Positions 19,919 through 36,229 of a DNA stretch of 64,000 bases are shown in pieces. The stretch lies in assembly GCA_947444305.1 (NCBI GenBank), contig CANEZP010000001.1:144151-208150 (forward strand), given 5' to 3'. The number at the start of each line of letters is the position of its first letter. Positions within the stretch are counted from its first letter, which is position 1. The stretch comes from Pseudobdellovibrionaceae bacterium. Its GTDB lineage: Bacteria; Bdellovibrionota; Bdellovibrionia; Bdellovibrionales; UBA1609. The position numbers and the translations under genes were made by a program. Under the pieces are notes generated by a model. It did no database searches, was not told the origin of the DNA, and saw only the letters and a program-made list of their open reading frames with translations.

Positions 19919-21103
19919 ATGGATACAGGCAGAAAATTAAAGCGCGGCGAGATGCTCTTCAAAGAGGGCGATACGCCCGCATCGGTCTACATCGTTCAGA
20001 GCGGTAAAATCGGTCTGATGGTTGAACGTAACGGTAAATTCACCGAAGTCGCCTCGCTAGGTCCGAATCAGATCTTCGGTGAACAGGCATTATTCTCATC
20101 GGGCAAACATGCGTTCGCGGCGCAAGCGCTTCAAGAAGCGAAGGTCATGGAAGTGCCCGTTGAGATTATGAAGCAGCAATTCGAAAAGGCACCCCCCGGG
20201 ATAAAACTTTTGGTGAAAAGCCTGGTCGACGAAACGAAAGTTTCACGGCAGGCGACGAAGACCTTGAAGCTCGAAACCGAGAAGAGCCCATGCCCTCAGG
20301 GTTTAATTCACAAATTATTTACCGAAGTTCACCTGATCGCGCGCCACATCGGCAAGCGCGGGAAGCCCGCCGTCGCTCTCAAGCCGGGTGAATCGGCGCC
20401 GCCGTACGAGCCGGGCCCCAACGAATTTACCGTTTCTTGGAACGCGATGAAAATGTACGCGACACGGTTCTTCGGCGAGTCACCGCAACGTTTGCGCAAC
20501 ACCATGGACCTCATGGCTAAACTGAAGTTTGCGGAATTGAAAATCGGCAAAAGCGACGAAGGCGAAGAGACCTTGAACGACGTTCATTTCTTCGACGTCC
20601 AACTCTGTGAAGATTTCGCCGAGTTTTACCAATATCACTTGTTCAAAGGCAGCCGCGCGGAAGCTATCTACGTAGATCCGCTGGCGTTGAAGGTCGCGAA
20701 AGCTTTGGTCGAAATCTCGGCCGGCGCGCCCGTCACGCATAAGGGCGCTACGCAGGTCGATTACCAAGTCGCGCTGACGCATTGTAAAACTAAACATCGC
20801 TTCGAATTGAAGAACACGCACCTCGACGCGCTCGAGCGTAAAGGTTTGTTCGTCGTTCGTAAAAGCTTTGACGATGGCCGGGTCGAGCTGCAATTCGACC
20901 GCAACGAATTCGTGAAGATGGCTCATTTTTGGAGCATCATTTTCGAAATCGATAAGTGGAACGATAAAGGCTTCGTCGACCTGAATGAAAAAGAAGAGGT
21001 CGCCGCCGGCATCGACGGCGAATGCGTCGCTTGTCAGGGCAAGATCGACAACAGCCACAAGTTCTGCCCGCACTGCGGCCACAAGCTGGCGCTCGCGGCC
21101 TAA
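19919..21103 (+). CDS. Cyclic-nucleotide-binding protein with C-terminal zinc ribbon
   Basis: A 394-residue protein. A cNMP-binding fold (about 5-115, with LKRGEMLFKEGD and FGEQALFSS) is followed by a mixed region with winged-helix-like segments and, at the very end, a four-cysteine zinc ribbon CVACQGKI / CPHCGHKL. There is no canonical CRP-type DNA-binding helix next to the cNMP domain. The ATG at 19919 has GAGG 6 bases upstream; earlier ATGs lack one. It is divergent from rny and its stop overlaps the convergent PilZ-like gene. Likely a regulator; target unknown. Confidence 0.72.
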   Translation: MDTGRKLKRGEMLFKEGDTPASVYIVQSGKIGLMVERNGKFTEVASLGPNQIFGEQALFSSGKHAFAAQALQEAKVMEVPVEIMKQQFEKAPPGIKLLVKSLVDETKVSRQATKTLKLETEKSPCPQGLIHKLFTEVHLIARHIGKRGKPAVALKPGESAPPYEPGPNEFTVSWNAMKMYATRFFGESPQRLRNTMDLMAKLKFAELKIGKSDEGEETLNDVHFFDVQLCEDFAEFYQYHLFKGSRAEAIYVDPLALKVAKALVEISAGAPVTHKGATQVDYQVALTHCKTKHRFELKNTHLDALERKGLFVVRKSFDDGRVELQFDRNEFVKMAHFWSIIFEIDKWNDKGFVDLNEKEEVAAGIDGECVACQGKIDNSHKFCPHCGHKLALAA

Positions 21104-23133
21104 TTAGACGGAGTTTTGCTCGTTGCGTAGTTTTCGCGTATCCAGGTACGCGCGAATTTTAGGAAAGAATCGTTGATCCCGAAATACGTCGCGTGGATCT
21201 GGAAATCCGCTTTATCGTTGGGATGTTCACCGCACGCGTACACCCGCGCCGCCAGGCAACTGTTCGGTGCATTGTCGTAAATCGACTTTCGCAAATAGAT
21301 CATCGTGCCGGGCACGATGGGTTGCTTACTCCGTAAAGTGGCGCCGAATTCACTAATCGCCTCAAGATGAATACTTTTAGAAACGTGCACCGACAACTGG
21401 GGTTGGCTCCAGCCTACGTTATCGAACTTGTAGAGGGTGTATGAATTCGGCAGGAATTCACTCAGCAGGAACATCATCTGCCGGCCATCCAGCGGTTTAA
21501 TGAATAAGCCTAAAATATCCTTGTTGTTCAACCAATGCATGTTGGGCTTATTTTCGTGCTCGGTCGTAATAAAAAACTTCAGCTGATCGATATTTTCGCA
21601 CAGCCCAACCTGTACCGCACGCATCCGTAAACCTTCAACCCACGAGACCGGATCGTCGGGCACGAAGTTAGAATCTATGATTAAGAAATGCATTTTGGAA
21701 TTATGCTTTTCGTTGCTGAGCCGAATCGCCACGTCATTGAGGGTGGCCGGCGACATTTCGATGGTCACGACTTGTTCATTTACCCCGCGGTAGATCTTAA
21801 AATTCACGGCGCGTCGGTCGCCTTTAATATCTTTTACCGTTAGCAGTTTCTGTAAGACGCGGCCTTTGCTCGCCAACAGCGCGGCTTCCTGCATGATTAG
21901 GGTCGATTCTTTTTCTTGAATTAAACTGAGCCAGCCGTCGGGCGAAGCGAAGATTGCGTCGGCCGGGTGTCCAAGGAAGGTATCGCCGTGCGCGGGGCCG
22001 GGGTCAACGCTCAAGCATTTCAAATCGGTGGCCGACACCGACAGCGAAATCGGATGTTTATAAAAGTCGGCGTCTTCGGCGGGGCGAATGGGCGTGGTGT
22101 TGCCCGAGCTACCTTGCGACTCAAGGTACTTATGCAAGAAAAACTGGTACGAGCTTTCGGTTTTGACTTCGAGCTGGTCCATCTCTTTTTCGAGTTGTAG
22201 CCGCAAGTTACTGCCCGCGGTTTCATCGGGATCGACGATGGCTACGCCGAACTCATTGGCCGAATCGGGCTCGTTCCAAAGCGCATCAGGATTGTAACGA
22301 AATTCCTCGCGGTTATCTTTCAACAAACTTTGGTAACGGGGCGCCTTGCTGAGCACGCGCCGGATCGTCGAGAGCGAGTTTTTGCTCAAACCGAAATAAG
22401 AGAAATAAACCAAGTGCTGCCCCGGGAGCTCGGGATGCGGTTCGGTCCGGAACACCTTACCGCGAAATTCTAATCGGCCTTTTTCACCGGGCAAAGTGAT
22501 GTAGAAGTGGCCGGGCAAACCTTTGCGCAGCGGCAGTGGATTACGGATGGCCAAACCGACGTCACTTAGACGATCGACCTTCGAGATCTTAGAAATCTCG
22601 ATCTCGTGCTTTACTTCCTGATTGAACAAAAACTGTGGCGTCACTTTTTTAGGTAGCGCTAAAAAAATCTGCATCTTCTGTAAGAAGATAAGCCGGTCGA
22701 TCGGCAGGTAAATAAGATCGTCCAGCAGCGGGTGCAAAATATCTAACTTATTGATGCCGTCGTCTTCGTACTTAAGCATCAGCATGCGGGGCGGGCTCGC
22801 TTGCGGCCAACACTTGTACTCTTTCATGCTGTAACGCAACTTATCGAGCCATGGGCCGGATTTTTCACCGATCGTGTCGAGCGCAAAAATCACGGAATGA
22901 ATTTCACTAAAAAGTTTGAGCTCAGCCCCGTCGGTTGATTCATCGGCGGGCGCGGGTTCCGCCTCGGCGTCCGGCGCGACTTCCGCGGTTCGCTTACGGA
23001 AGTAAAGATTTTGAAATTCCTGATTGCTCTTAAAGGTGGCGAAGCGCAGGTCGTCCATGCCGAGCTCTCCGAGAAATTGCTCAATCTGCCGGCGGAGCCG
23101 GTCATCCTGAACAATGGCGACGACATTTGGCAT
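21100..23133 (-). CDS. Receiver-like / double PilZ-like protein
   Basis: A 677-residue cytoplasmic protein. The N-terminus (MPNVVAIVQDDRLRRQIEQFL) resembles a receiver domain without the full acidic pocket. A PilZ-like barrel follows (about 185-260, LSDVGLAIRNPLPL), then a second receiver-like region (about 480-570) and a second PilZ-like barrel (about 585-665, ISEFGATLRSKQPI). Both PilZ modules lack the RxxxR and D/NxSxxG residues that bind cyclic di-GMP. GAGGGGA precedes the ATG. It may be a structural adaptor for surface motility or signalling, but this is inference. Confidence 0.65.
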   Translation of the reverse strand: MPNVVAIVQDDRLRRQIEQFLGELGMDDLRFATFKSNQEFQNLYFRKRTAEVAPDAEAEPAPADESTDGAELKLFSEIHSVIFALDTIGEKSGPWLDKLRYSMKEYKCWPQASPPRMLMLKYEDDGINKLDILHPLLDDLIYLPIDRLIFLQKMQIFLALPKKVTPQFLFNQEVKHEIEISKISKVDRLSDVGLAIRNPLPLRKGLPGHFYITLPGEKGRLEFRGKVFRTEPHPELPGQHLVYFSYFGLSKNSLSTIRRVLSKAPRYQSLLKDNREEFRYNPDALWNEPDSANEFGVAIVDPDETAGSNLRLQLEKEMDQLEVKTESSYQFFLHKYLESQGSSGNTTPIRPAEDADFYKHPISLSVSATDLKCLSVDPGPAHGDTFLGHPADAIFASPDGWLSLIQEKESTLIMQEAALLASKGRVLQKLLTVKDIKGDRRAVNFKIYRGVNEQVVTIEMSPATLNDVAIRLSNEKHNSKMHFLIIDSNFVPDDPVSWVEGLRMRAVQVGLCENIDQLKFFITTEHENKPNMHWLNNKDILGLFIKPLDGRQMMFLLSEFLPNSYTLYKFDNVGWSQPQLSVHVSKSIHLEAISEFGATLRSKQPIVPGTMIYLRKSIYDNAPNSCLAARVYACGEHPNDKADFQIHATYFGINDSFLKFARTWIRENYATSKTPSN

Positions 23134-25047: not shown

Positions 25048-27531
25048 CTATTTAAAGAAAACGAAGCGCTGGCCGTCCCAGCTTAATTCCAAAACTTCGC
25101 CGCCTCTGACTACGCCGGCATCGATTAGCTCGTTGAGCTGCTGCAGAATCTGCGTGTTGATGACCCGGTCGATACCGTCGACTTCGTTTGCTTCGGCGGC
25201 CAACCGGTAAGCAACACCGCGGCGACTGATTTTAATTTGTACCGGGTTTGGTAACGCAAGCTGTGTCTTGAGAGCGTCATTGAGTTCGGATACACGACGC
25301 TCGATAATGCGAGCCAAGTTAAACCAAGTCGGCTTACGTAATTGAACAAGGCTATCGCTGCGTTGGAGAATGGACATGAAATGCATAGCCATCGTACCTT
25401 TGTCGCCTGCGGCTTTAAACATTTCGGTGACGGCTCTTGTTAAAGAAGCCGCTTGGTCACCCGTAGCGTTCGAATAAACCTGCGTCGGCAAATTACGGAT
25501 CGTGCCGTAATGGAATAGCAATACAGAGTCAGAAAAATCAACGAGGTTACTGTCGGCGAAATTTCCTAGTTCGACTCGGCCGGTTTCAGCCGCCTCGACC
25601 AATCGTTTCAGAGTCGTGGGATCCGCGTTTTCCACGTTTAAAAAAGCGATCGCGCGGTGCGGACGTTGATCCACCAGTTTTTTAATCTGTTCGAAGTCCG
25701 TACCACGTTGATTGAAATCGACGATCAAAGTTTTTAAGTGAGCTTCGCGAACTTCTTTACCGTTTTTGGCGCCGTAAACTAAATGATCGATCGCGCGAAC
25801 GGTTTCTTGAATCTGATTTGTGTCATCAACGACCGTCAAAACGGCGCGTGCTTTACCGATCTTTAAACCTTTAAATCCCATACTCAAGGCGCGCCCGATT
25901 TGGCTTAGAGCCCTGGCCTGTCCGGGCACGGTGCGGGGGAGGTCTTCGCGCAACATGCGCATATCGTCTTGTAGAGTGCGCATGAGGACGGTGCGATCAA
26001 CGCCCGTACGATCGGCAATGGCGATCACCGCTTGTTCGCGGCTTACGACCGGTAAGTTCTCGCGATGCGCGTCGAACAGGATTTTACGCTCGGCCAACAT
26101 CTTAACTAAGGCTTGTCTTTTGATCTCAATCTGTTCGACGAGATCTTGGTTACTCTTTATCTTCGCGAGGTCATCAGACTTGGTGTCCATGACTGCATCA
26201 AGGTGTTGTTTTTGAAGAGCTTTAAGTTCGGCTTCGGCAATGCGAGCTTTGTTGTCGATTGCCATCAGCTCTTTGCGGCCGCTGGACCAAGCTTTTTCAG
26301 CGTTGTCCATATCAACCATCAACGCTTGAATTTGATCTTGAACCTTCGCGGCTTCGGCGTGACCCGCGGGCGTGTTGCGGCCTAAGTTCATCTGCAAATC
26401 GCTCTTGAGGCTAGTGATTTTAGATTTTATCACTTGAACTTCAGCCGAGTTGGCGAAGTCCACGAGGTACGCGGCACCGGCGCGATTCATCATGTCCAGC
26501 GCCGGATCCGGAAGAACCAGGCCCCGCACGTATTTTTGTGCCTTGTGCACGAAGAGTTCTAATATCTCGAGTGGGAACTTAACACCATAATAAGCTTCCA
26601 TTCTTTTAGCGTTGTCTTGCACCATCGCGATAGCCTCGGCCGTCGTCGGCGAAACTAAGTCTACGGGCTCACCGAAGCGACGTTCGATGGCGCCGTCATT
26701 TTTCAAATATTTATATTCTTTGCGGGTGGTTGAGCCGATGACCCGAACACGAGCACCTTCGGTACCGTCCGTTAGAAATGGTTTGAACATTTCGGCCACG
26801 CCGGACGAACCGCTGGAATCCCGGCCCGCGCTCATCAATTGATGGATTTCGTCAAAATAAACTATAACCGTTTGATCGACCATTTGGCCGGTCACTTCAT
26901 CTTTGACTTTAGTAGTGGCTAAAATTTCGAGGTACTGCAATAGGGCCTTAACTTTATCTTCCATTTCGCCGCGGTAGGTGGTGCCGGCGACGAGCGAGCT
27001 GACGTCGATCTCCATAAAAATAGGTTTGCCCATCTTGTCGATTTGGCGCCAATTTTTATGCAGGTAGCGGGCGAGCTGCCGAACCATCGAAGTTTTACCG
27101 GAGCCGGGCTCACCCGTGATGACGAGGTTAGGCTTTGATCCATCGTTCATTTGCACGATAGAGCGGTGAATAAGTTCGTCGCGGCCGATGTAGTTCGGTT
27201 TTTTAGCTAAGAAGTCTTCGCTGTAAATCTTTGCGTTTACGTCCTTCAAGATGGAAGCGTCGGCTTTATACTCTTTGCGGATATCTCCGCCCGCCGTTGA
27301 TTTTTGGCGTGCGCTGGCTTTTGCGGGATCGGTTTCGATGCCCGCGTCTTCGGCGAGCTTTTTTTGTGCCTTCGTTGAGCGAAGGGTACGGTTATACCAA
27401 GCGGAGAATTTCTCCGAAAGCGAGAGCGTCGCGCTACCCGCAGTTGCGTTGGCGAAAGAAGGAACCATCGCCAATTGCGTAATCAGTAAAGCAGGCAAAA
27501 CTGCGGTGACCGTATTCTTCAAGTTTTTCAT
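25048..27531 (-). CDS. Exported ClpB-like AAA+ ATPase with degenerate second ATPase domain
   Basis: An 827-residue protein, last of a five-gene operon. Residues 1-29 form a signal peptide with a lysine start, a hydrophobic core and an ANA cleavage site. The first ATPase domain follows Clp/Hsp100 D1: Walker A GEPGSGKT (140-147), the pore-region motif AGTTYRGEMEDKVKALL (182-198), Walker B VIVYFDEIH (222-230), IGSTTRKEY and arginine fingers in AIERRF (281-286). A coiled coil (about 360-490) takes the place of the ClpB middle domain. The second domain aligns in outline (about 540-740) but reads DDTNQIQETV where Walker A should be. Location outside the cytoplasm is inferred. Confidence 0.78.
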   Translation of the reverse strand: MKNLKNTVTAVLPALLITQLAMVPSFANATAGSATLSLSEKFSAWYNRTLRSTKAQKKLAEDAGIETDPAKASARQKSTAGGDIRKEYKADASILKDVNAKIYSEDFLAKKPNYIGRDELIHRSIVQMNDGSKPNLVITGEPGSGKTSMVRQLARYLHKNWRQIDKMGKPIFMEIDVSSLVAGTTYRGEMEDKVKALLQYLEILATTKVKDEVTGQMVDQTVIVYFDEIHQLMSAGRDSSGSSGVAEMFKPFLTDGTEGARVRVIGSTTRKEYKYLKNDGAIERRFGEPVDLVSPTTAEAIAMVQDNAKRMEAYYGVKFPLEILELFVHKAQKYVRGLVLPDPALDMMNRAGAAYLVDFANSAEVQVIKSKITSLKSDLQMNLGRNTPAGHAEAAKVQDQIQALMVDMDNAEKAWSSGRKELMAIDNKARIAEAELKALQKQHLDAVMDTKSDDLAKIKSNQDLVEQIEIKRQALVKMLAERKILFDAHRENLPVVSREQAVIAIADRTGVDRTVLMRTLQDDMRMLREDLPRTVPGQARALSQIGRALSMGFKGLKIGKARAVLTVVDDTNQIQETVRAIDHLVYGAKNGKEVREAHLKTLIVDFNQRGTDFEQIKKLVDQRPHRAIAFLNVENADPTTLKRLVEAAETGRVELGNFADSNLVDFSDSVLLFHYGTIRNLPTQVYSNATGDQAASLTRAVTEMFKAAGDKGTMAMHFMSILQRSDSLVQLRKPTWFNLARIIERRVSELNDALKTQLALPNPVQIKISRRGVAYRLAAEANEVDGIDRVINTQILQQLNELIDAGVVRGGEVLELSWDGQRFVFFK

Positions 27532-27532
27532 A

Positions 27533-29014
27533 TTACCTACTACGTTTCAATTTCCATGCCACGACGAGGGGCTTCGTGGCCCGGAAAACCTCCGGTAAAC
27601 CCGTCCCAACAACCATAAAAACGCTATTGAGGGTTTGGGCAAACTCGGCGGAACTGAGGGTGTCTAAGTCCTGCATCATCTCCCGATAAGGGGCACCGGA
27701 GAAGGTTTCCGAAAAACGGCTCCAGTACTCGCGGTCGCCTACGAACCACTGAACCGTATTAACCGGTAATCCCGTAGCGAACAAGCAAATGGGCATCCCT
27801 AGCTTTTGGATGAACTTGGTCGCGAAGGGAATCCGTCGCAAGCCGAACGTGCACACGAAGCCGAGGCCGAGGTACAAACCGACTTCACCGATCGTGGCTT
27901 GCAAATCGAGTCCGTCGAATTCCGTCTTCAGCGCGTTCAAAGCGGCGAGCCGTTCGGGGCTTGCGGTCTGGCGCTTGCGGAATTGTTCAACCATCAACGG
28001 ATGCATCTTAAAAACCATCAAGAGCTGGTGGCGATTTTGATTCATCCAGCCTTTGTCTAAATCGGCCAGCGGCTTCTTATGGTCTAAATCACTTTCGTAA
28101 CGGTCGATGAAGCGTTGCTGCGAGGACAACGGTTGTCGCGCATTGGCCATCAGACTGCGCGTGAGGGATTCGCAAACCACCGTGGCGGCTCGTCTGGAGT
28201 CGGCGGTCTTATGGTACTTCACCGTGCGCACCATGCAGTTGTTGGTGAGAAGCTGGTATAGGCCTTCGCGGATCTGGGCGCGGTCTTCGGGGCCGTTATC
28301 GAGCTTTAGCGGCTTCGTTAAGAAGGCCACCAACGGCATCGTGCTAATCTCATTATGGTACGCTTTTAACCAAACGGCCCGTGCCTTATTGCGCGAGAGA
28401 GCGACGAAGCGTACGCGTTTTTTATCGTCGTATTCTTCGTAGGAAGTGATCTGCGCTTCGGTTAACTGGCTATTGCGCGCGAGCATCTGTGAGAGATACG
28501 AGTTCTGCTCGTAACGTTCTTGCGCGTTCAACGTGGCTTGGTCCCAAAGAAGATTGGCGTCTTTGATTTCGGCCTCGTTCAACGGCGCCATCTTGGGTAA
28601 GCCGTCGAAGTGGTGAACCGGGTTGACGTTCATGCGCGTGATCTGGCTGGGATTAAGTTCGACCGACAACGGCTCATCACGCATTTTAGGCTCGCTCAAA
28701 GCGAGGTTCACGCGCATTCGGTTGAACGCGCCGGGGAGATCGGCCAAAAGTTTGCCGCGGATTTCGCTGCACGTAGTAAATTCGGTGTACATGGCTCCGG
28801 CTTGGCCGTCTTGGATCTGCGGCACTTCTTGGAAGCAATTGATCAAGCCGTGCAAATAAGTCTGCGCGTTTCGCAAATGCACGAACACTTCGAGATTAAG
28901 CTCGGTGATGATCTGGCGTTCGACGTCGTTTGAGCGAGCCGGCGCGGCGGCGTTGGCCAAAGAGTTGGTCAGCAATAAGGCGGCGAGCAGCACGCGTTGG
29001 AATTTAGCGCGCAT
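27533..29014 (-). CDS. Secreted/membrane protein of unknown function, ATPase-operon gene 4
   Basis: A 493-residue protein with a signal peptide (1-23, ending SLANA). The central part is helical and soluble. Two hydrophobic segments near 378-393 and 403-421 suggest a C-terminal membrane hairpin, and the protein ends in a basic tail. It overlaps the preceding gene by 11 bases and ends one base before the ATPase start, so it is translationally coupled to both. I recognise no family or catalytic motif. Confidence 0.75.
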   Translation of the reverse strand: MRAKFQRVLLAALLLTNSLANAAAPARSNDVERQIITELNLEVFVHLRNAQTYLHGLINCFQEVPQIQDGQAGAMYTEFTTCSEIRGKLLADLPGAFNRMRVNLALSEPKMRDEPLSVELNPSQITRMNVNPVHHFDGLPKMAPLNEAEIKDANLLWDQATLNAQERYEQNSYLSQMLARNSQLTEAQITSYEEYDDKKRVRFVALSRNKARAVWLKAYHNEISTMPLVAFLTKPLKLDNGPEDRAQIREGLYQLLTNNCMVRTVKYHKTADSRRAATVVCESLTRSLMANARQPLSSQQRFIDRYESDLDHKKPLADLDKGWMNQNRHQLLMVFKMHPLMVEQFRKRQTASPERLAALNALKTEFDGLDLQATIGEVGLYLGLGFVCTFGLRRIPFATKFIQKLGMPICLFATGLPVNTVQWFVGDREYWSRFSETFSGAPYREMMQDLDTLSSAEFAQTLNSVFMVVGTGLPEVFRATKPLVVAWKLKRSR

Positions 29015-30419
29015 AGTAGGCCCCTTGCGGGCGCGGGAACAACTCGTTCAACTTCGTGCCCAAAGCCTCGCGCGGGAAACTGGTGTACGCAAGTTCTGCG
29101 GCCTGGGCTTGGTTATACAAGTGTTGGACTCGGCGGTTGAGGACATCGCGTTTCAAATCGCTGTTCACTTGAATAGTCGACAAGTAGCCCGCGAGTTTGA
29201 ACGCGCGCTTGGCGAATTCACGGTAAGTGTTTTGCTGAGCGGTCAAATACACGTCGAGTTCGGCGGTCACTCGGTGCTGGTTGAATTGGCGAAAGTGACG
29301 CTGATTCATCGCGAGCGTGTAAAATTCCTTAACCGACTTTTTATCTTCGGGATCGGCCGTCAAAAGGGCCGAGCGTGCTTTTTCTTCTTCGCGCAATTGC
29401 TGATCGAGCTCACCCAAATAAAGAATGTGCAAACCGTTGAGCGAAACGGACAGCTCTTGCGGCGTGTTCGGCTTACCTTCAACCACGGATTGGAAATTCT
29501 CGATCAATTTTTTCCAGCGGTATTGCGTGTACGTCCACGAAGCCGACTCGCCGACGATCCACCCGACGATAAAGCTTACGGGCGTCAGACGGGTCGAGGC
29601 CATGAGTTTGCTACCGATGTAAGCCAAGCGACCCGCGATGGTCGTGCCGCGGGCGATGGCCGCGCCGCTGGGGCCGGCCGCGAGCAAAGCCATGAGGCCC
29701 GCGTTGCTACCGAACATTTGGCGAAACTTTAAAAATTCAGCGTGTTCCATTTGCGCGGCGAAATCTTCACCGGGCTGGTCTTGCTCACCGAACGTTAACA
29801 AGAAGTAGGGCGGCGGCGGGACCTTGGGACGTGAGGCTTCGGCGTGCGCATTGGCACGGGCCGTTCCGGCGGCAACGGCGCTCACCGCGAACACGGACCA
29901 CGGCAATCGCGAGCGTAAGAATTTATGCAAGACGGGGACGTTGCGAAATTCCGGCGTGGCGGTAAAGGCCACGGCGTAGATTAACCAACCCATGACGATG
30001 CCGTTCTGATTTCCTTCGGCGGAAGAAGACAACCAGTAATCGACTTCTGTTTGGTAGCGAGCGAGCCATGTGCGGTTCAGCTGCGAACTTAAGATCCGGA
30101 TCGTCCCGCGGTGGGCCTCGTCCGAGGTTTGGTAAGTTTGGTTCAACGAACGTAAAAGATTTTTGTAGCCGGGCGAAGCCAGCAGCTCGTCGCTGAAATC
30201 GACAAACGCTTGGTCAACGACGTTGCGGGCGTTGCGCTGTTGGCGCGTCTTCACTTCGGCCTCTTCGCCGCCGCAGAGTTGATCTTGCGAATAGTAGAGG
30301 CAGTAGTTCTTTACGTTCGTGTGCAAATCCTCAAGGCCCGACAATGCCGGTTGCGCCGCGGCCGAAAAGGCCGACGCGCAGAGCACGATCAAGTTGAGGA
30401 GGAGCAACGAAGTTTTCAT
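29004..30419 (-). CDS. Secreted/membrane protein of unknown function, ATPase-operon gene 3
   Basis: A 471-residue protein with a signal peptide (1-22, ending AAAQ). Hydrophobic segments lie near 139-154, 172-185, 240-256 and 280-291, some Gly/Ala-rich, with helical stretches between and after them. Two Cys (40, 49) near the N-terminus may form a disulfide. Its ATG shares one base with the preceding stop (TAATG). No known domain recognised; it shares with its neighbours the pattern of signal peptide plus internal hydrophobic pairs. Confidence 0.75.
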   Translation of the reverse strand: MKTSLLLLNLIVLCASAFSAAAQPALSGLEDLHTNVKNYCLYYSQDQLCGGEEAEVKTRQQRNARNVVDQAFVDFSDELLASPGYKNLLRSLNQTYQTSDEAHRGTIRILSSQLNRTWLARYQTEVDYWLSSSAEGNQNGIVMGWLIYAVAFTATPEFRNVPVLHKFLRSRLPWSVFAVSAVAAGTARANAHAEASRPKVPPPPYFLLTFGEQDQPGEDFAAQMEHAEFLKFRQMFGSNAGLMALLAAGPSGAAIARGTTIAGRLAYIGSKLMASTRLTPVSFIVGWIVGESASWTYTQYRWKKLIENFQSVVEGKPNTPQELSVSLNGLHILYLGELDQQLREEEKARSALLTADPEDKKSVKEFYTLAMNQRHFRQFNQHRVTAELDVYLTAQQNTYREFAKRAFKLAGYLSTIQVNSDLKRDVLNRRVQHLYNQAQAAELAYTSFPREALGTKLNELFPRPQGAYYAR

Positions 30420-32065
30420 TACTGGGGAACTCCCGTGAGCAAGCCGTACACGCCGAACATAAATTCATTGGGCACGGCGTAAGCGTCGGTACCGGAGATC
30501 ATCTTTTGTTTTGCGGCGTCATCCAGCATGAAGCCCATGTGAAACATGAACATGAGATTGGCCGGACTATGTTCGCCGCTCGACAAGTAATCTAAAACCA
30601 TCTGATTGAACAAAGTCGGGGGCAAAGAGCTGATCATGTTGCGCCCTTCGGCGTTCAGGTCACGCAAAGTCTCTTGCGGCAACTTCGCGAGTAATTCAAA
30701 CCATTCGGTGATGAATTCCTTACGGCCTTGCAGACGGGCACGCATACCTAAGTAGCCTTGGATCTGCTTCAACATATTGTCGGGCGTACCGAGGCTGTTC
30801 GGCAGATCCTTCTCTACCTTCGCGAAGAAAGCCTTCATCGATGGCGAGGATTCGCTTAACGCTTTCGCGAATTCATCTTTGTGTTTCGCTAAGAAAGCTT
30901 TCAGGCGATTGTTCACGGGGTTGGCGGTGAACGGGGCGTAGAGATTCAGGAAGTCGATGCCCGCCGTGCGAACCGAGGCTTGCACGTCTTTGATCGTTAC
31001 TTCAACGGCGTTCGTTTTCGAAAAACCGGGCGCGCATTGGACGCGGCTGTCGCGGTAAGTAACGTTGTTGCCTTCGATCTTCATGTCGGCCGGGGGATCG
31101 ATTTCGGCGTAGTAAAGCTGGCTAACGTCGAGCAAGAAATTGAGATCGTTCAACATGTAGTTCACGCGGCGCACGTCTTTCGCGAACTGCGGATCTTTCG
31201 AATCCGTATACGTGCGGCCTTGCAGTTCTTGCTTTAACATACGGGCACGGCAATCGAGCTCGAGCCAGTGCATGCGGTGGTGGGTGCGTTCAACTTCCGT
31301 CACCGAGGCGACGTCTTTGGTTGAAAGCAAACCGTACTGGCGGGCGTAGTAAAGGGGAGTGCCCACGAGCAAACCGCCGGCGGCGGTCACGGCCGTGAAT
31401 TCAAACGTACCGCGCGTCCACTCTTTGAAGCGCATCGAGCGGGTGAGTTTTTCGTAAATCCGTGATTCCTTCATGCCGCCCGACAAGGCTGAAGCGCTGG
31501 TGGACACGGCGGGAATCGGCGTCGGGGCCGGGCGACCACGGCGCAAAACCCACAACATAACGGTCGCGGCCCAAGTGCCGTAGTAAGCGCCTTCGGCGAG
31601 ATTGACCCAGTAGCTTTCGCGGGATTGGTGCGCGGCCACGCGCTGCTCTTTTGACAAGTAAGCGGCGTCTACCTGTTGGAAGAACAACCAAAGGGCACGG
31701 CGGCTCGCGCGATCCGAAAAGTAAAGCTCGTAAGCCTCGCGCAAAGTTTTCTCTAACATGTTGGGCGTGGGCAAAGTCGGTTGGATCATGCAACGCGCGA
31801 CTTTGGCCGCCAGGTACGCCGAATTCTCGTCGCGATCGATTTGCACGAGCGCCTTCGCGGGCGAACCGCCGTCGGTGACTTGGGTCAAATCTTCGATGAA
31901 CAATTCGGTCGGGGGATTTTGCGCGTTGAAAGCCGCGACGTATTCCTTCAAACCACAGTTCTCGCCGCCGCCCCAGTTTAATAACGGAGCCGACTTCACC
32001 GGTGACTGACCCATCGCGGGAAGCGCAAATGTTAAAGCTAAAAATAGAGAAATTGATTTTTTCAT
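30419..32065 (-). CDS. Secreted/membrane protein of unknown function, ATPase-operon gene 2
   Basis: A 548-residue protein with a signal peptide (1-19, ending AMG). Hydrophobic stretches lie near 162-175 and 222-245; the rest is helical. Several Cys (37, 92 and others) could pair outside the cytoplasm. It overlaps the preceding gene by 4 bases (ATGA) and the next by 1. No catalytic motif seen and no family recognised. Confidence 0.75.
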   Translation of the reverse strand: MKKSISLFLALTFALPAMGQSPVKSAPLLNWGGGENCGLKEYVAAFNAQNPPTELFIEDLTQVTDGGSPAKALVQIDRDENSAYLAAKVARCMIQPTLPTPNMLEKTLREAYELYFSDRASRRALWLFFQQVDAAYLSKEQRVAAHQSRESYWVNLAEGAYYGTWAATVMLWVLRRGRPAPTPIPAVSTSASALSGGMKESRIYEKLTRSMRFKEWTRGTFEFTAVTAAGGLLVGTPLYYARQYGLLSTKDVASVTEVERTHHRMHWLELDCRARMLKQELQGRTYTDSKDPQFAKDVRRVNYMLNDLNFLLDVSQLYYAEIDPPADMKIEGNNVTYRDSRVQCAPGFSKTNAVEVTIKDVQASVRTAGIDFLNLYAPFTANPVNNRLKAFLAKHKDEFAKALSESSPSMKAFFAKVEKDLPNSLGTPDNMLKQIQGYLGMRARLQGRKEFITEWFELLAKLPQETLRDLNAEGRNMISSLPPTLFNQMVLDYLSSGEHSPANLMFMFHMGFMLDDAAKQKMISGTDAYAVPNEFMFGVYGLLTGVPQ

Positions 32066-35000
32066 AAACCTAAAACCACTTTCTCGAACTCGGCTACTAG
32101 CTCGTTAATGTACTGAGTGTTTTTAGGGCCGCCGTAGATTTGCGAGTAGATGCCGTTGACGTAGTCGGAACCCGCAGAATAAGCGCCCATCTCTTCGTAG
32201 AGATCGTGCACCAGTTTGCGATAAGCCACGCGCGCGCGCGTTTTGATCAACGGGTTGGTCGATTGCTCGGCCGTCTTTAAAGCCTTTTGCAAGTTTTCGA
32301 GGTTCAACAATTCCATCGGCGCGGTCGAGGGATTTAAACCCAAAGCTTGCAGCTCGGCGACGTTGTAATTGGCCAGACGACGCAGACGGCGCTCTTTCAC
32401 CTTCTTCAAAGTGTTGAGCTGACGAGCTAAAAATTCAGGATCCTTAGCGTGCAAACGACGCCAGTAAAGATCCGTACGGGCCAGCGGGTTGGTCCACAAA
32501 CCTTCGAACATGCGGCCGAAGGCGGGCGCCAAAGCCGGCAGCAGCGGAAGTGCCGTAAGCGCCACTCCCCAGAATCGGCGGAATTTCGCATCTTCGATCA
32601 GAGCGCCGTTCTCGAGAGAGTTGGACCATTGGTTCGCGGCGTTTAATAAAATACCGCCGCCGTTTTCGGTTTCGCTGTAGGCGTAGCGGTTATCGCGTGC
32701 TTCCAATTCCATTAAAGCGGGGATGCCGACGTAATGCTGAACGGCCGCGTCGGCGCCGAAAATCGCGGTCAAGAAAGTGAAGTAACCGCGGCCGATGTAT
32801 TTATTGGCCGACATATATTCGGTCATCTTTTGCTGTACCCAGTACGAGGGACCCTGCGCTTTGAACGGCGTGGCCATCGGTACGATTAAGCGGCGCGCGA
32901 CGACTATGCCGATCACGGTTAGAATCGATTCGGTGCCTTTACCGTAAATCGTATTCCACTGCGTACGCTGCGCTTCGAGGCTGATCTTCATACGGTCTTT
33001 AACGTCGCTGTGGTACTTCCAGAGCGCGAAGGTAAGGTCATAGCGGCTATCTCGCTCTTTTTTCAAATCCGCGAGGTCGGCAATTTTTTGCTCAAACAAT
33101 AACTGTTCTATCCCGCGCGATTGGCTCAAAAGTCCTGATTGCGTTTGGCTCGGGCTGAGCAAATTGCTTTGACCTTGAAAAGCGACGTCGAGCAAGTTCG
33201 TACGCGCGATGACCGGCGCCAAACCTTTTAGGTCGGCGGCGTTCAACAATTCGTTCATGTTCGAAATGATGTTGGTCTTCGTCGTGCTAATCGCCGAGTC
33301 GAGCTGAGCATTCCCGCCGGTGCTGTTCAGCAGTTGAGCGAGCGTCTTCTCATCTTGGACGACCAATTCCAGCAAGCGGTATTGATCTAAAGTCTCTAAC
33401 CGCAAAAGCTTGCGGTAATAAGCGAGCATGGTGTTGCGGTTATCGACGCTCCAGTAAGTATCGAGCGCTTTGACGACTTCGCTCATGTCGTCCACGGCGC
33501 CTTGCGTGTTTCGAAGGTGGCCGTAGGTGCTGAGGCGGACGAAGCGTTGGCAATCGATGGCGTTTTGATCGAGCGTGGTGGGCGCAACGGGTGCGTTGCC
33601 GCTGAAAAAGCTTTTCAGGTTGTTTTCCCAGAAGATGCCGACCTTATCGGTCACGGTAAGGGCTTTGACCTCGCAAGACTCTGGATTCTTCATCGACTTA
33701 CGGATGTAGGCTTCGACTTCGCTTTGCGCGCGAACGGAATCACGGTAAGCGCCGGCTTTTTCAACGTATTTAAACCATTGCTGAACGCGCGACGAGCTCT
33801 TGTCGATCTCGCCCTCGAGCATCTTGAAAATGAATTGTGACTTGTAAGGCAGCTTCTCGTCGGCAATTTGCTCGCCGGTGGTCGCTTCGATCTTGTTCGC
33901 CGCTTCACGGATCGCTTTCGCGTAACCGTCGGCTTGTAAGTTCGCAATCTTTTCGTCGGAAGCCGCGGCTTGCACCTTAGTGATCGTTTGGTTGAGCCAC
34001 TGGTTGTATTGACCGATGGAAGTGAGTGAATTTAAGTGGCGCGTGGCCGCGGCTTCGGCCATGGTCTCGACGGCTTTGGTATGCACTTCGGTCAGGCCCG
34101 TCATAACAACCGGCACAACATCGATCATGCTCGCGACCAAAGCTTGGGCAAGACTGATATTAAGCGCTTCGGTGGCCTGCTGAGCGAGCTGCGAGGAAGT
34201 CAGCCGTTTGATATTGGAGTTCATCGCATCTCTTAAGTAGATAACTTGCGCTAGGCGAAGGCGACGTTCGATTTCGGCGTCGTTTAATTTCAGCGGCGAA
34301 CGCAACTGTTTCGCTAACCCTTTGATGTCGGTCAGCAGCTGAGCGTCGAAGATCGTTAAGAATTTTTCGTCACCGCGCAGGAAAGATACGTTCAATTGCT
34401 TAGTCGCTTCCGTAAGCTTCGCGACCTGCGCGAGCGACAGAACGTTAGTGGCATCGTCGTTCAAGCGTTCGGTGATGTATTCAGGGGTAACCAATACTCT
34501 AACAAGATTTTCCGATACGATGACCTTCTCGTCACCCATACGGATCAAGTTTTCCGAGGCGGCACGAATGACCGGCGGCAACGCCGAGATAACTTCGGGC
34601 ATTTGGTTGAGCAATTCGGCACGAACGACGCCGTTCTTTGTGCGTGATAAACGCGTATCGATTTGCCGGCGAACGACGGAAACCAAATCTTCTTTCATGC
34701 AGAACGGTTTTTGCGACATAGCCGCTAAGGCGGTAAGGTCATCCTTCGAGCGTTCTCTCGAAACCGAAACCGCGTTCGCGTAATTCACCGCGAACGAGTA
34801 GCCGAGCAAACAGCGCGCGGCAATTTCGTAATTCTTGTCGTTTAAGCGGCGAAGCATAACTTTAAGGCCGGCCGAGATCATCATTTCGTCGGTGACCGAA
34901 AGAACCACGTTTTCTTTGGTCGTACGAACCGGAATGAGTTCACTGGGCAATTCGGTCAACAACATAGCGCGGTTGTAGATCTCCGCGGGAACGGTCAATT

Positions 35001-35328
35001 CAAGGCTGGTCCGCAAAGCTTTCAGGTTCCAGTCGTTCTGAGCTTGTTGCATGAAAGCGGCCTTGATGCCGGAGCGAACGATGAACGAATACGATTTGAT
35101 TAAATTCGCGGCTTTGATGACTTCGGCCGAAGTGATTTCTTTTTGGATCTGGGCGCGAAGGGCGGCCTGTTGCTCCAGCGCCTTATCCAAATCACGGCCT
35201 TCGCTGATCTGTTCGTTCAGCGTGGCGATACTTTGGTTCAACGTCTGCTCGGAACCGGAACTGGAACCGGCGCCGGCCGCGTGGGCCGGGGAGAGCAATT
35301 GAAGGACGATGGCAAAGGCCAGAAACAT
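32062..35328 (-). CDS. Large secreted/membrane protein of unknown function, ATPase-operon gene 1
   Basis: A 1088-residue, overwhelmingly helical protein heading the five-gene operon. The ATG at 35328 has GAGG 5 bases upstream and opens directly into a signal peptide (MFLAFAIVLQLLSPAHA); the longer frame lacks one. After a Gly/Ser linker comes a long coiled-coil-prone region. Hydrophobic segments in the last third (TVIGIVVARRLIVPMA, then FWGVALTALPLLPALAPAFG) suggest membrane attachment. A scaffold role is a guess; no family recognised. Confidence 0.78.
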   Translation of the reverse strand: MFLAFAIVLQLLSPAHAAGAGSSSGSEQTLNQSIATLNEQISEGRDLDKALEQQAALRAQIQKEITSAEVIKAANLIKSYSFIVRSGIKAAFMQQAQNDWNLKALRTSLELTVPAEIYNRAMLLTELPSELIPVRTTKENVVLSVTDEMMISAGLKVMLRRLNDKNYEIAARCLLGYSFAVNYANAVSVSRERSKDDLTALAAMSQKPFCMKEDLVSVVRRQIDTRLSRTKNGVVRAELLNQMPEVISALPPVIRAASENLIRMGDEKVIVSENLVRVLVTPEYITERLNDDATNVLSLAQVAKLTEATKQLNVSFLRGDEKFLTIFDAQLLTDIKGLAKQLRSPLKLNDAEIERRLRLAQVIYLRDAMNSNIKRLTSSQLAQQATEALNISLAQALVASMIDVVPVVMTGLTEVHTKAVETMAEAAATRHLNSLTSIGQYNQWLNQTITKVQAAASDEKIANLQADGYAKAIREAANKIEATTGEQIADEKLPYKSQFIFKMLEGEIDKSSSRVQQWFKYVEKAGAYRDSVRAQSEVEAYIRKSMKNPESCEVKALTVTDKVGIFWENNLKSFFSGNAPVAPTTLDQNAIDCQRFVRLSTYGHLRNTQGAVDDMSEVVKALDTYWSVDNRNTMLAYYRKLLRLETLDQYRLLELVVQDEKTLAQLLNSTGGNAQLDSAISTTKTNIISNMNELLNAADLKGLAPVIARTNLLDVAFQGQSNLLSPSQTQSGLLSQSRGIEQLLFEQKIADLADLKKERDSRYDLTFALWKYHSDVKDRMKISLEAQRTQWNTIYGKGTESILTVIGIVVARRLIVPMATPFKAQGPSYWVQQKMTEYMSANKYIGRGYFTFLTAIFGADAAVQHYVGIPALMELEARDNRYAYSETENGGGILLNAANQWSNSLENGALIEDAKFRRFWGVALTALPLLPALAPAFGRMFEGLWTNPLARTDLYWRRLHAKDPEFLARQLNTLKKVKERRLRRLANYNVAELQALGLNPSTAPMELLNLENLQKALKTAEQSTNPLIKTRARVAYRKLVHDLYEEMGAYSAGSDYVNGIYSQIYGGPKNTQYINELVAEFEKVVLGL

Positions 35329-35479: not shown

Positions 35480-35513
35480 AAAAAGAAACCGCGGTTTGCA
35501 CCGCGGTTTCTTT
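35480..35513 (-). terminator. Rho-independent terminator of the EF-hand protein gene
   Basis: A perfect 13-bp stem, AAAGAAACCGCGG (35482-35494) / CCGCGGTTTCTTT (35501-35513), with a 6-base loop. On the minus strand it ends in a T-rich tail. It is 57 bases past the stop of the gene at 35570, and separates it from the ATPase operon. Confidence 0.85.
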
Positions 35514-35569: not shown

Positions 35570-36229
35570 CTACTTAGCAGAAGCAGTTGCGAAACGAGCG
35601 GCGAAAGCCGGGTTCAAACCGCAACGGGTAGCCAAGTTCGTCAAAGCGGGAACGGCATCCTTCGTGGTTTTCTTCAAAGCGGTCGAGTACGAGCGGATCA
35701 AATCAGCCGCGTAGCCGGTCAGGGTGCTATCAGCCAAATCCGAAGCTGCGGTCTCGTCGGCAGAAACAACGCCGTCGCCGTTCAAATCCGAATTTTTAGC
35801 GATATAAGCTAAGCCATTGATCGACGTTTGTTGGCGCATGTTTGCGGCAACAACGCTGTCAATCGTAGCGGAAAGGTTGGAGTAAGCGTCGGCGCTCAAG
35901 TGAGCGTCCAAGCAACCTTTATCTACAACCGTCGTGCGGAAAGCGTTGACCAAAGTTTCGGCAGAACGACCTTGGAGGCCTTGTACTTTTGAGATGTAAT
36001 CTTGAAACGAAGCAACGGCATCAGCAGCCGGAGCGTTTTGTGCGTGGATTGCGGCAACGACCGTGCGGATGTTGCTAGCGGCAACGGCGGCACCGGTGCC
36101 GACTTTCATAGCGGCTGCTCCACCTTTTGCGGCAGCGCCGATTTCGGGAACAACGCGGATAGCTTTACTTTTCATTTCGGCGTGTGCAGAGACACCAACC
36201 AAGAGGGCAAGAACGATAATTGATTTCAT
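35570..36229 (-). CDS. Small secreted protein with one EF-hand loop
   Basis: A 219-residue Ala-rich helical protein with a signal peptide (1-17, ending SAHA). A single canonical calcium-binding loop DLNGDGVVSADE lies at 148-159. Two Cys (106 and near 204) could form a disulfide. The ATG at 36229 has AAAGGAAG 6 bases upstream. It has its own terminator, so it is an independent unit just upstream of the ATPase operon on the same strand. Family not recognised. Confidence 0.8.
   Translation of the reverse strand: MKSIIVLALLVGVSAHAEMKSKAIRVVPEIGAAAKGGAAAMKVGTGAAVAASNIRTVVAAIHAQNAPAADAVASFQDYISKVQGLQGRSAETLVNAFRTTVVDKGCLDAHLSADAYSNLSATIDSVVAANMRQQTSINGLAYIAKNSDLNGDGVVSADETAASDLADSTLTGYAADLIRSYSTALKKTTKDAVPALTNLATRCGLNPAFAARFATASAK

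Follow-up and report, generated by a model that had tools for sequence, protein, structure and literature searches.

An operon of uncultured Bdellovibrionales encodes a divergent Hsp100 ATPase with an export signal and four predicted exported proteins of no recognized family

In the genome of an uncultured Bdellovibrionales bacterium we describe an operon of five genes, A to E, whose last product is by its sequence a divergent exported Hsp100 ATPase, and whose other four products match no recognized family. On this evidence the system, with E as its motor subunit, is new; to our knowledge, a system with four protein families lacking known relatives lies outside the kinds known, and no bacterial AAA+ unfoldase driven by ATP is known to us to work beyond the cytoplasm. 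On balance we favor an extracytoplasmic, membrane-associated protein-threading machine as the product of the operon, with a ring of E as the motor and A–D as the dock or channel, because this best accommodates the Hsp100 homology and first-module motifs of E, the N-terminal signals, the even cysteine counts of the partners and the conserved co-occurrence of A and D. If these proteins sit where their sequences say, the choice is between a supply of ATP to the periplasm, or prey, of Bdellovibrionales and a trans-envelope motor of a new kind.

Operon organization and surroundings

The window analyzed here is a 64,000-nucleotide stretch of a 4.2 Mb assembly, the nearest named relatives of which are uncultured Bdellovibrionales genomes (ACE_BDE2 and bin.161, of the same genus). 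Five minus-strand open reading frames run from 35328 to 25048, encoding proteins of 1088, 548, 471, 493 and 827 aa: A (32062..35328), B (30419..32065), C (29004..30419), D (27533..29014) and E (25048..27531). Read directly from the sequence, their junctions are ATGA, TAATG, ATGCGCGCTAA (an 11-base overlap) and a 1-base gap; place, strand and junctions all agree with the five-gene operon of the initial annotation. A Shine-Dalgarno-like stretch, GAGGTG, lies 5' of the start ATG of gene A at 35328. Between the operon and an upstream exported gene lies a hairpin with a short U tract (35482..35513, minus strand; fold −23.9 kcal/mol, z −6.3), which was spotted by eye and did not appear in a consensus terminator scan, and which is probably an intrinsic terminator parting the two. 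A small, alanine-rich, predicted exported protein, 'u' (35570..36229, minus strand), belongs to a separate transcription unit; most relatives have a comparable small alanine-rich exported protein at or beside the cluster, poorly conserved in sequence, so that the likeness is one of position. At the other end, a ROK kinase gene converges on the operon, its stop falling 1 base short of the end of E. Further along the window, a 677 aa protein with a response-regulator-like start (21100-23133) serves as a locus marker across the family, and only 15 relatives of it were found in GTDB contigs.

The predicted motor protein is an Hsp100 ATPase with one module intact in its motifs

Profiles, structures and trees all confirm that the last gene encodes an AAA+ protein of the Hsp100 type, as initially annotated, with the refinement that it comprises two modules, of which the first alone retains an active site. 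Among NCBIfam profiles E matches ClpA (6e-47) and ClpB (9e-44) at 150–160 bits, where equivalog cut-offs are near 1000; it falls below the ClpB equivalog (150 bits, cut-off 1232) and below that of TssH (score 134, cut-off 885). The structures of Hsp104 and ClpB align with residues 114–814. In module trees the first module (D1) of E groups with D1 of ClpA/ClpB, and the second module (D2) of its relatives with D2 of ClpA/ClpB, in trees whose branches are long and which do not show the E family to be a single clade. Searches of E against PADLOC and PHROG returned generic AAA or Clp-type matches only, and defence and phage readings of the operon were set aside on this basis.

All the motifs of a working ATPase lie in D1 of the window protein: Walker A (GEPGSGKT, aa 140–147; 27091..27114, minus strand), Walker B (IVYFDEIHQ, containing DEIH, aa 223–231; 26839..26865, minus strand), sensor 1, an ERRF arginine finger and a TYRGE pore loop (GTTYRGE with Tyr186, aligned with GAKYRGE of ClpB; 26965..26985, minus strand). 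None of Walker A, Walker B, sensor 1 and the pore loop survives in D2, so active sites are not present in both modules. In most relatives the arrangement is reversed, with an eroded D1 and a D2 that carries Walker A and B, a GY pore loop, an asparagine sensor 1 and the arginine-finger position. Exceptions are one relative (L099) whose D1 has Walker A and B and no pore-loop tyrosine, and two (L185 and the partial L102) whose D2 lacks that tyrosine. The motifs thus form a strong, though not universal, one-working-module pattern among E relatives. That the working module has switched and yet a motor is retained speaks for selection to maintain ATP-driven pulling, and against decay, in this family.

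E resembles ClpB/Hsp104, and ClpA, in its two tandem Hsp100 modules, pore-loop tyrosine and arginine finger. By sequence, a hydrophilic, helix-prone stretch of ~120 residues lies between its modules, which may or may not correspond to the coiled-coil middle domain of ClpB/Hsp104. E differs in having one module that is catalytically dead by its motifs, in scoring far below the ClpA/ClpB cut-offs, in starting with an export signal where Clp proteins have their N-domain (Clp_N gave no match in E among the families listed), and in sharing its operon with four new exported proteins.

Export signals and the location of the ring

All five products begin with a convincing predicted export signal, in agreement with the signal peptides initially annotated, although the signal of A has no lysine or arginine when read from ATG 35328. 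In E the signal was recognized by N-terminal hydrophobicity (MKNLKNTVTAVLPALLITQLAMVPSFAN/A region; 27448..27531, minus strand). Signals were scored with our own hydrophobicity heuristic, which is loose and positive for 38% of open reading frames in the loci studied; the contrast with Clp controls therefore carries the weight for export. At the chosen cut, a hydrophobic N-terminus was found in 10 of 11 E-family members, the eleventh having a weaker one, versus none of 52 ClpA/ClpB controls from the same phylum.

Hsp100-type motors burn ATP, normally only inside the cell. A normal periplasm contains little ATP, and on the prevailing view work there runs without it; this counts against an extracytoplasmic motor. 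The difficulty would be solved by a machine that spans the inner membrane and resembles a secretion-system ATPase, where an uncleaved N-terminal anchor holds E with its ring in the cytoplasm, where the hydrophobic segments of A could contact it, and A–D build a periplasmic stalk or channel. We consider this arrangement unlikely, since in most members, including that of the window, the single hydrophobic segment of E has net positive residues before it and a small-residue site after it, a pattern that predicts an N-in/C-out orientation, and no second transmembrane segment was found in E: no later stretch is hydrophobic enough to return the ring to the cytoplasm.

Partner proteins A–D

The initial annotation assigned the first four proteins to no recognized family, which our searches sustain: against Pfam, NCBIfam, PADLOC and PHROG no family rose above chance for A–D, and these proteins contain neither AAA matches nor type VI secretion families. 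Homology to known secretion or gliding apparatus was looked for in A–D, and none was found. The A profile matched no solved structure in the PDB. That of D matched only opioid-receptor helices, a match judged compositional (membrane helices) rather than homologous. AlphaFold models were poor (pLDDT 40 for A, 46 for D), too low for a fold search, which also tells against the threading reading.

The internal hydrophobic pairs ascribed to these four proteins are only partly present. By a 19-residue Kyte-Doolittle mean, the mostly helical A has three internal peaks, and D-family relatives also bear such segments; in the window's own B, C and D no internal stretch exceeds 1.5.

Cysteine counts in the mature proteins are even throughout: four in A (173/210/552/593), four in B (37/92/272/344), two in C (40/49) and six in D, paired as 60/82, 260/281 and 388/410 at spacings of 22, 21 and 22 residues. 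E has no cysteine. In the D family eight relatives all keep C60/C82, and every relative covering C388/C410 keeps that pair; in the A family C173/C210 is invariant in five. Even counts together with pairs conserved in both families fit an oxidising compartment, with disulfides in A–D.

Conservation and distribution

Single-protein searches, with A and C in about 340–369 genomes and with A in GTDB contigs, returned almost no matches. The orphan-gene reading that these searches suggested was dropped once synteny was applied: with pdxH, the response-regulator-like gene, HIT and ETF-QO as anchors, clusters coding for large exported proteins came to light in the same position throughout the family. 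A core of A-B/X-D-E, where X is the second gene after A, was thereby found again in one uncultured Bdellovibrionales family. Near-zero E-values of iterated profiles include training sequences and were left out as evidence.

The A-family profile aligns full length with proteins of six genomes (G006, G338, G029, G009, G035, G368) and detects untrained members in G368, G035 and G289 (3e-38 to 7e-31); when built without the window sequence, it aligns the window A over 1010 columns (98.8%, 1e-16). D-family matches occur in 8 genomes, including the untrained G035 (1.5e-65) and G334 (7e-63), and the profile-profile match of this family (D7) to the window D is weak (76%, E 2e-5). The window B has an N-terminal profile match to a B-like protein of one relative (L061) at 39% probability (E 3e-4), and the X family matches the same protein at 46%; from position and this weak similarity, B is probably a member of the X family. 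For C, the genome searches and profile comparisons yielded no homologue.

The genes keep their order in genus g22, rather than lying scattered in all relatives. The order A-X-D-E recurs in a distant genus, and in G035 these four lie on one strand with a 4-base A/X overlap and a 1-base X/D gap. In two further genomes (G289 and G368) A-X and D-E are on separate, unlinked contigs. Elsewhere, D-E pairs were seen away from the pdxH locus and divergently transcribed (L184:6777-10870 and L185), making D and E a two-gene module. Among 47 genomes, A and D occur together in 7, with 8 having each (p 1e-6 ignoring kinship, 0.0015 by genus). The recurrence of homologues and gene order in other genera indicates that the operon is no chance assembly; the system is real and fast-evolving. 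Counting against a threading machine are a genome with A and B in which no D or E was found (G009), and the low scores, given above, by which the window B and D join their families. Beyond the one uncultured family, the A profile had no credible match in 369 genomes of the phylum; weak A matches in a second family (f18) proved to be a different conserved gene among unrelated neighbors.

This distribution bears on whether E might be a periplasmic disaggregase for quality control, or an assembly factor, serving the cell's own envelope with A–D as adaptors or clients. ClpB-class motors do disaggregate proteins, and exported AAA+ proteins that carry a metalloprotease domain occur in the phylum as well (below), as in a two-part quality-control system. 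Ordinary quality control would be expected to be widespread and slow-evolving, however, whereas this gene set is patchy and about 15–20% identical between genera, and we regard such a role as improbable.

A proposed protein-threading machine and its analogues

The operon, export signals, Hsp100 homology and conserved gene set lend partial support to the membrane-associated machine outside the cytoplasm that the initial annotation put forward. Within the threading machine that we favor, all five products would be made together and exported via the general secretion route, and E would take up its fold, an Hsp100-type ring, outside the cytoplasm. This ring would grip unfolded chains by its pore-loop tyrosine and pull them by hydrolysing ATP in a single active module, D1 in the window and D2 in most relatives, with the remaining module as a structural element. 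The helical and probably disulfide-stabilised A–D would serve as the dock or channel by which the ring is kept at a membrane. Ring assembly, complex formation, threading activity and the disulfides are here inferred from sequence features and analogy.

Known systems share parts of this design. ClpV/TssH of type VI secretion is likewise an Hsp100 motor in a secretion context, but ClpV is cytoplasmic, E scores below the TssH cut-off and A–D lack type VI families. Torsins have one module and use AAA-like activators, whereas E has two modules and A–D have no AAA match. They are AAA+ ATPases of a topologically external compartment, the ER lumen, where they work with partner proteins (PMC4358337). 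PTEX of Plasmodium (HSP101, EXP2, PTEX150) is the nearest working analogue; in it, the ClpB-class HSP101 unfolds proteins and threads them across the vacuole membrane, outside the producing cell (PMC7355975). Both systems would pair an exported ClpB-class motor, judged exported in E by its sequence signals, with non-ATPase partners. They differ in that ours is bacterial, that A matches no solved structure, and that the A and D profiles gave no homology beyond the Hsp100 core; the likeness is likely convergent.

The analogy could be taken further, with a PTEX-like translocon in the prey periplasm, powered by ATP leaking from dying prey, that pushes predator proteins into the prey cytoplasm. The host order is Bdellovibrionales, HSP101 provides a precedent for a ClpB-class motor in the vacuole around Plasmodium (PMC7355975), and rapid divergence fits a changing partner. 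Nevertheless, credible A-family matches are confined to one uncultured family, predation by that family is unproven, and A has no relative of solved structure; we give this version a low probability.

ATP supply and a second family of exported AAA+ proteins

A TLC-type translocase could import or export ATP; a search of the window's genome for ATP/ADP translocases of this family gave none, which also counts against an extracytoplasmic motor, and one partial match occurs in a relative (G009). In the literature searched, with partial coverage, we found no periplasmic AAA+ machine in this group.

The E profile also matches proteins of 1150–1600 aa, and most of those checked have two or three Hsp100-like modules. 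In the two that were scanned, an FtsH-type M41 protease domain lies at the C-terminus, and HExGH is present in most. A hydrophobic N-terminus was found in 23 of the 29 checked, and the others look cut or mis-started. These giant proteins are apparently exported ATP-dependent proteases. Profile matches place them in many families across the phylum (L196:7154-11452 and L229–L258), with one gene in the window's own genome (L181:6725-10660, about 96725-100660 of contig C4 of G000). Since this apparently exported AAA+ protease family is phylum-wide, extracytoplasmic ATP use becomes a lineage-wide question, not a quirk of a single operon; as an independent AAA+ family with export signals, it also speaks for the reading that we favor. 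We tentatively raise the possibility, somewhat short of an even chance, that the lineage runs dedicated ATP-driven AAA+ machines outside the cytoplasm, comprising the Hsp100 complex and the exported proteases, which would imply an unrecognised ATP supply in the periplasm or prey.

The neighborhoods of the giant protease genes hold further large proteins. In the window's own genome, the protease gene adjoins one for an exported 1065 aa protein with matches to a circularly permuted ATP-grasp domain (L181:3401-6595), and downstream of it and of two shorter exported proteins lies an 859 aa protein with one Walker A and an export-like N-terminus (L181:13438-16014). At a second locus the neighbor is an exported 1056 aa protein with an FGE-sulfatase domain (L196:11459-14626).
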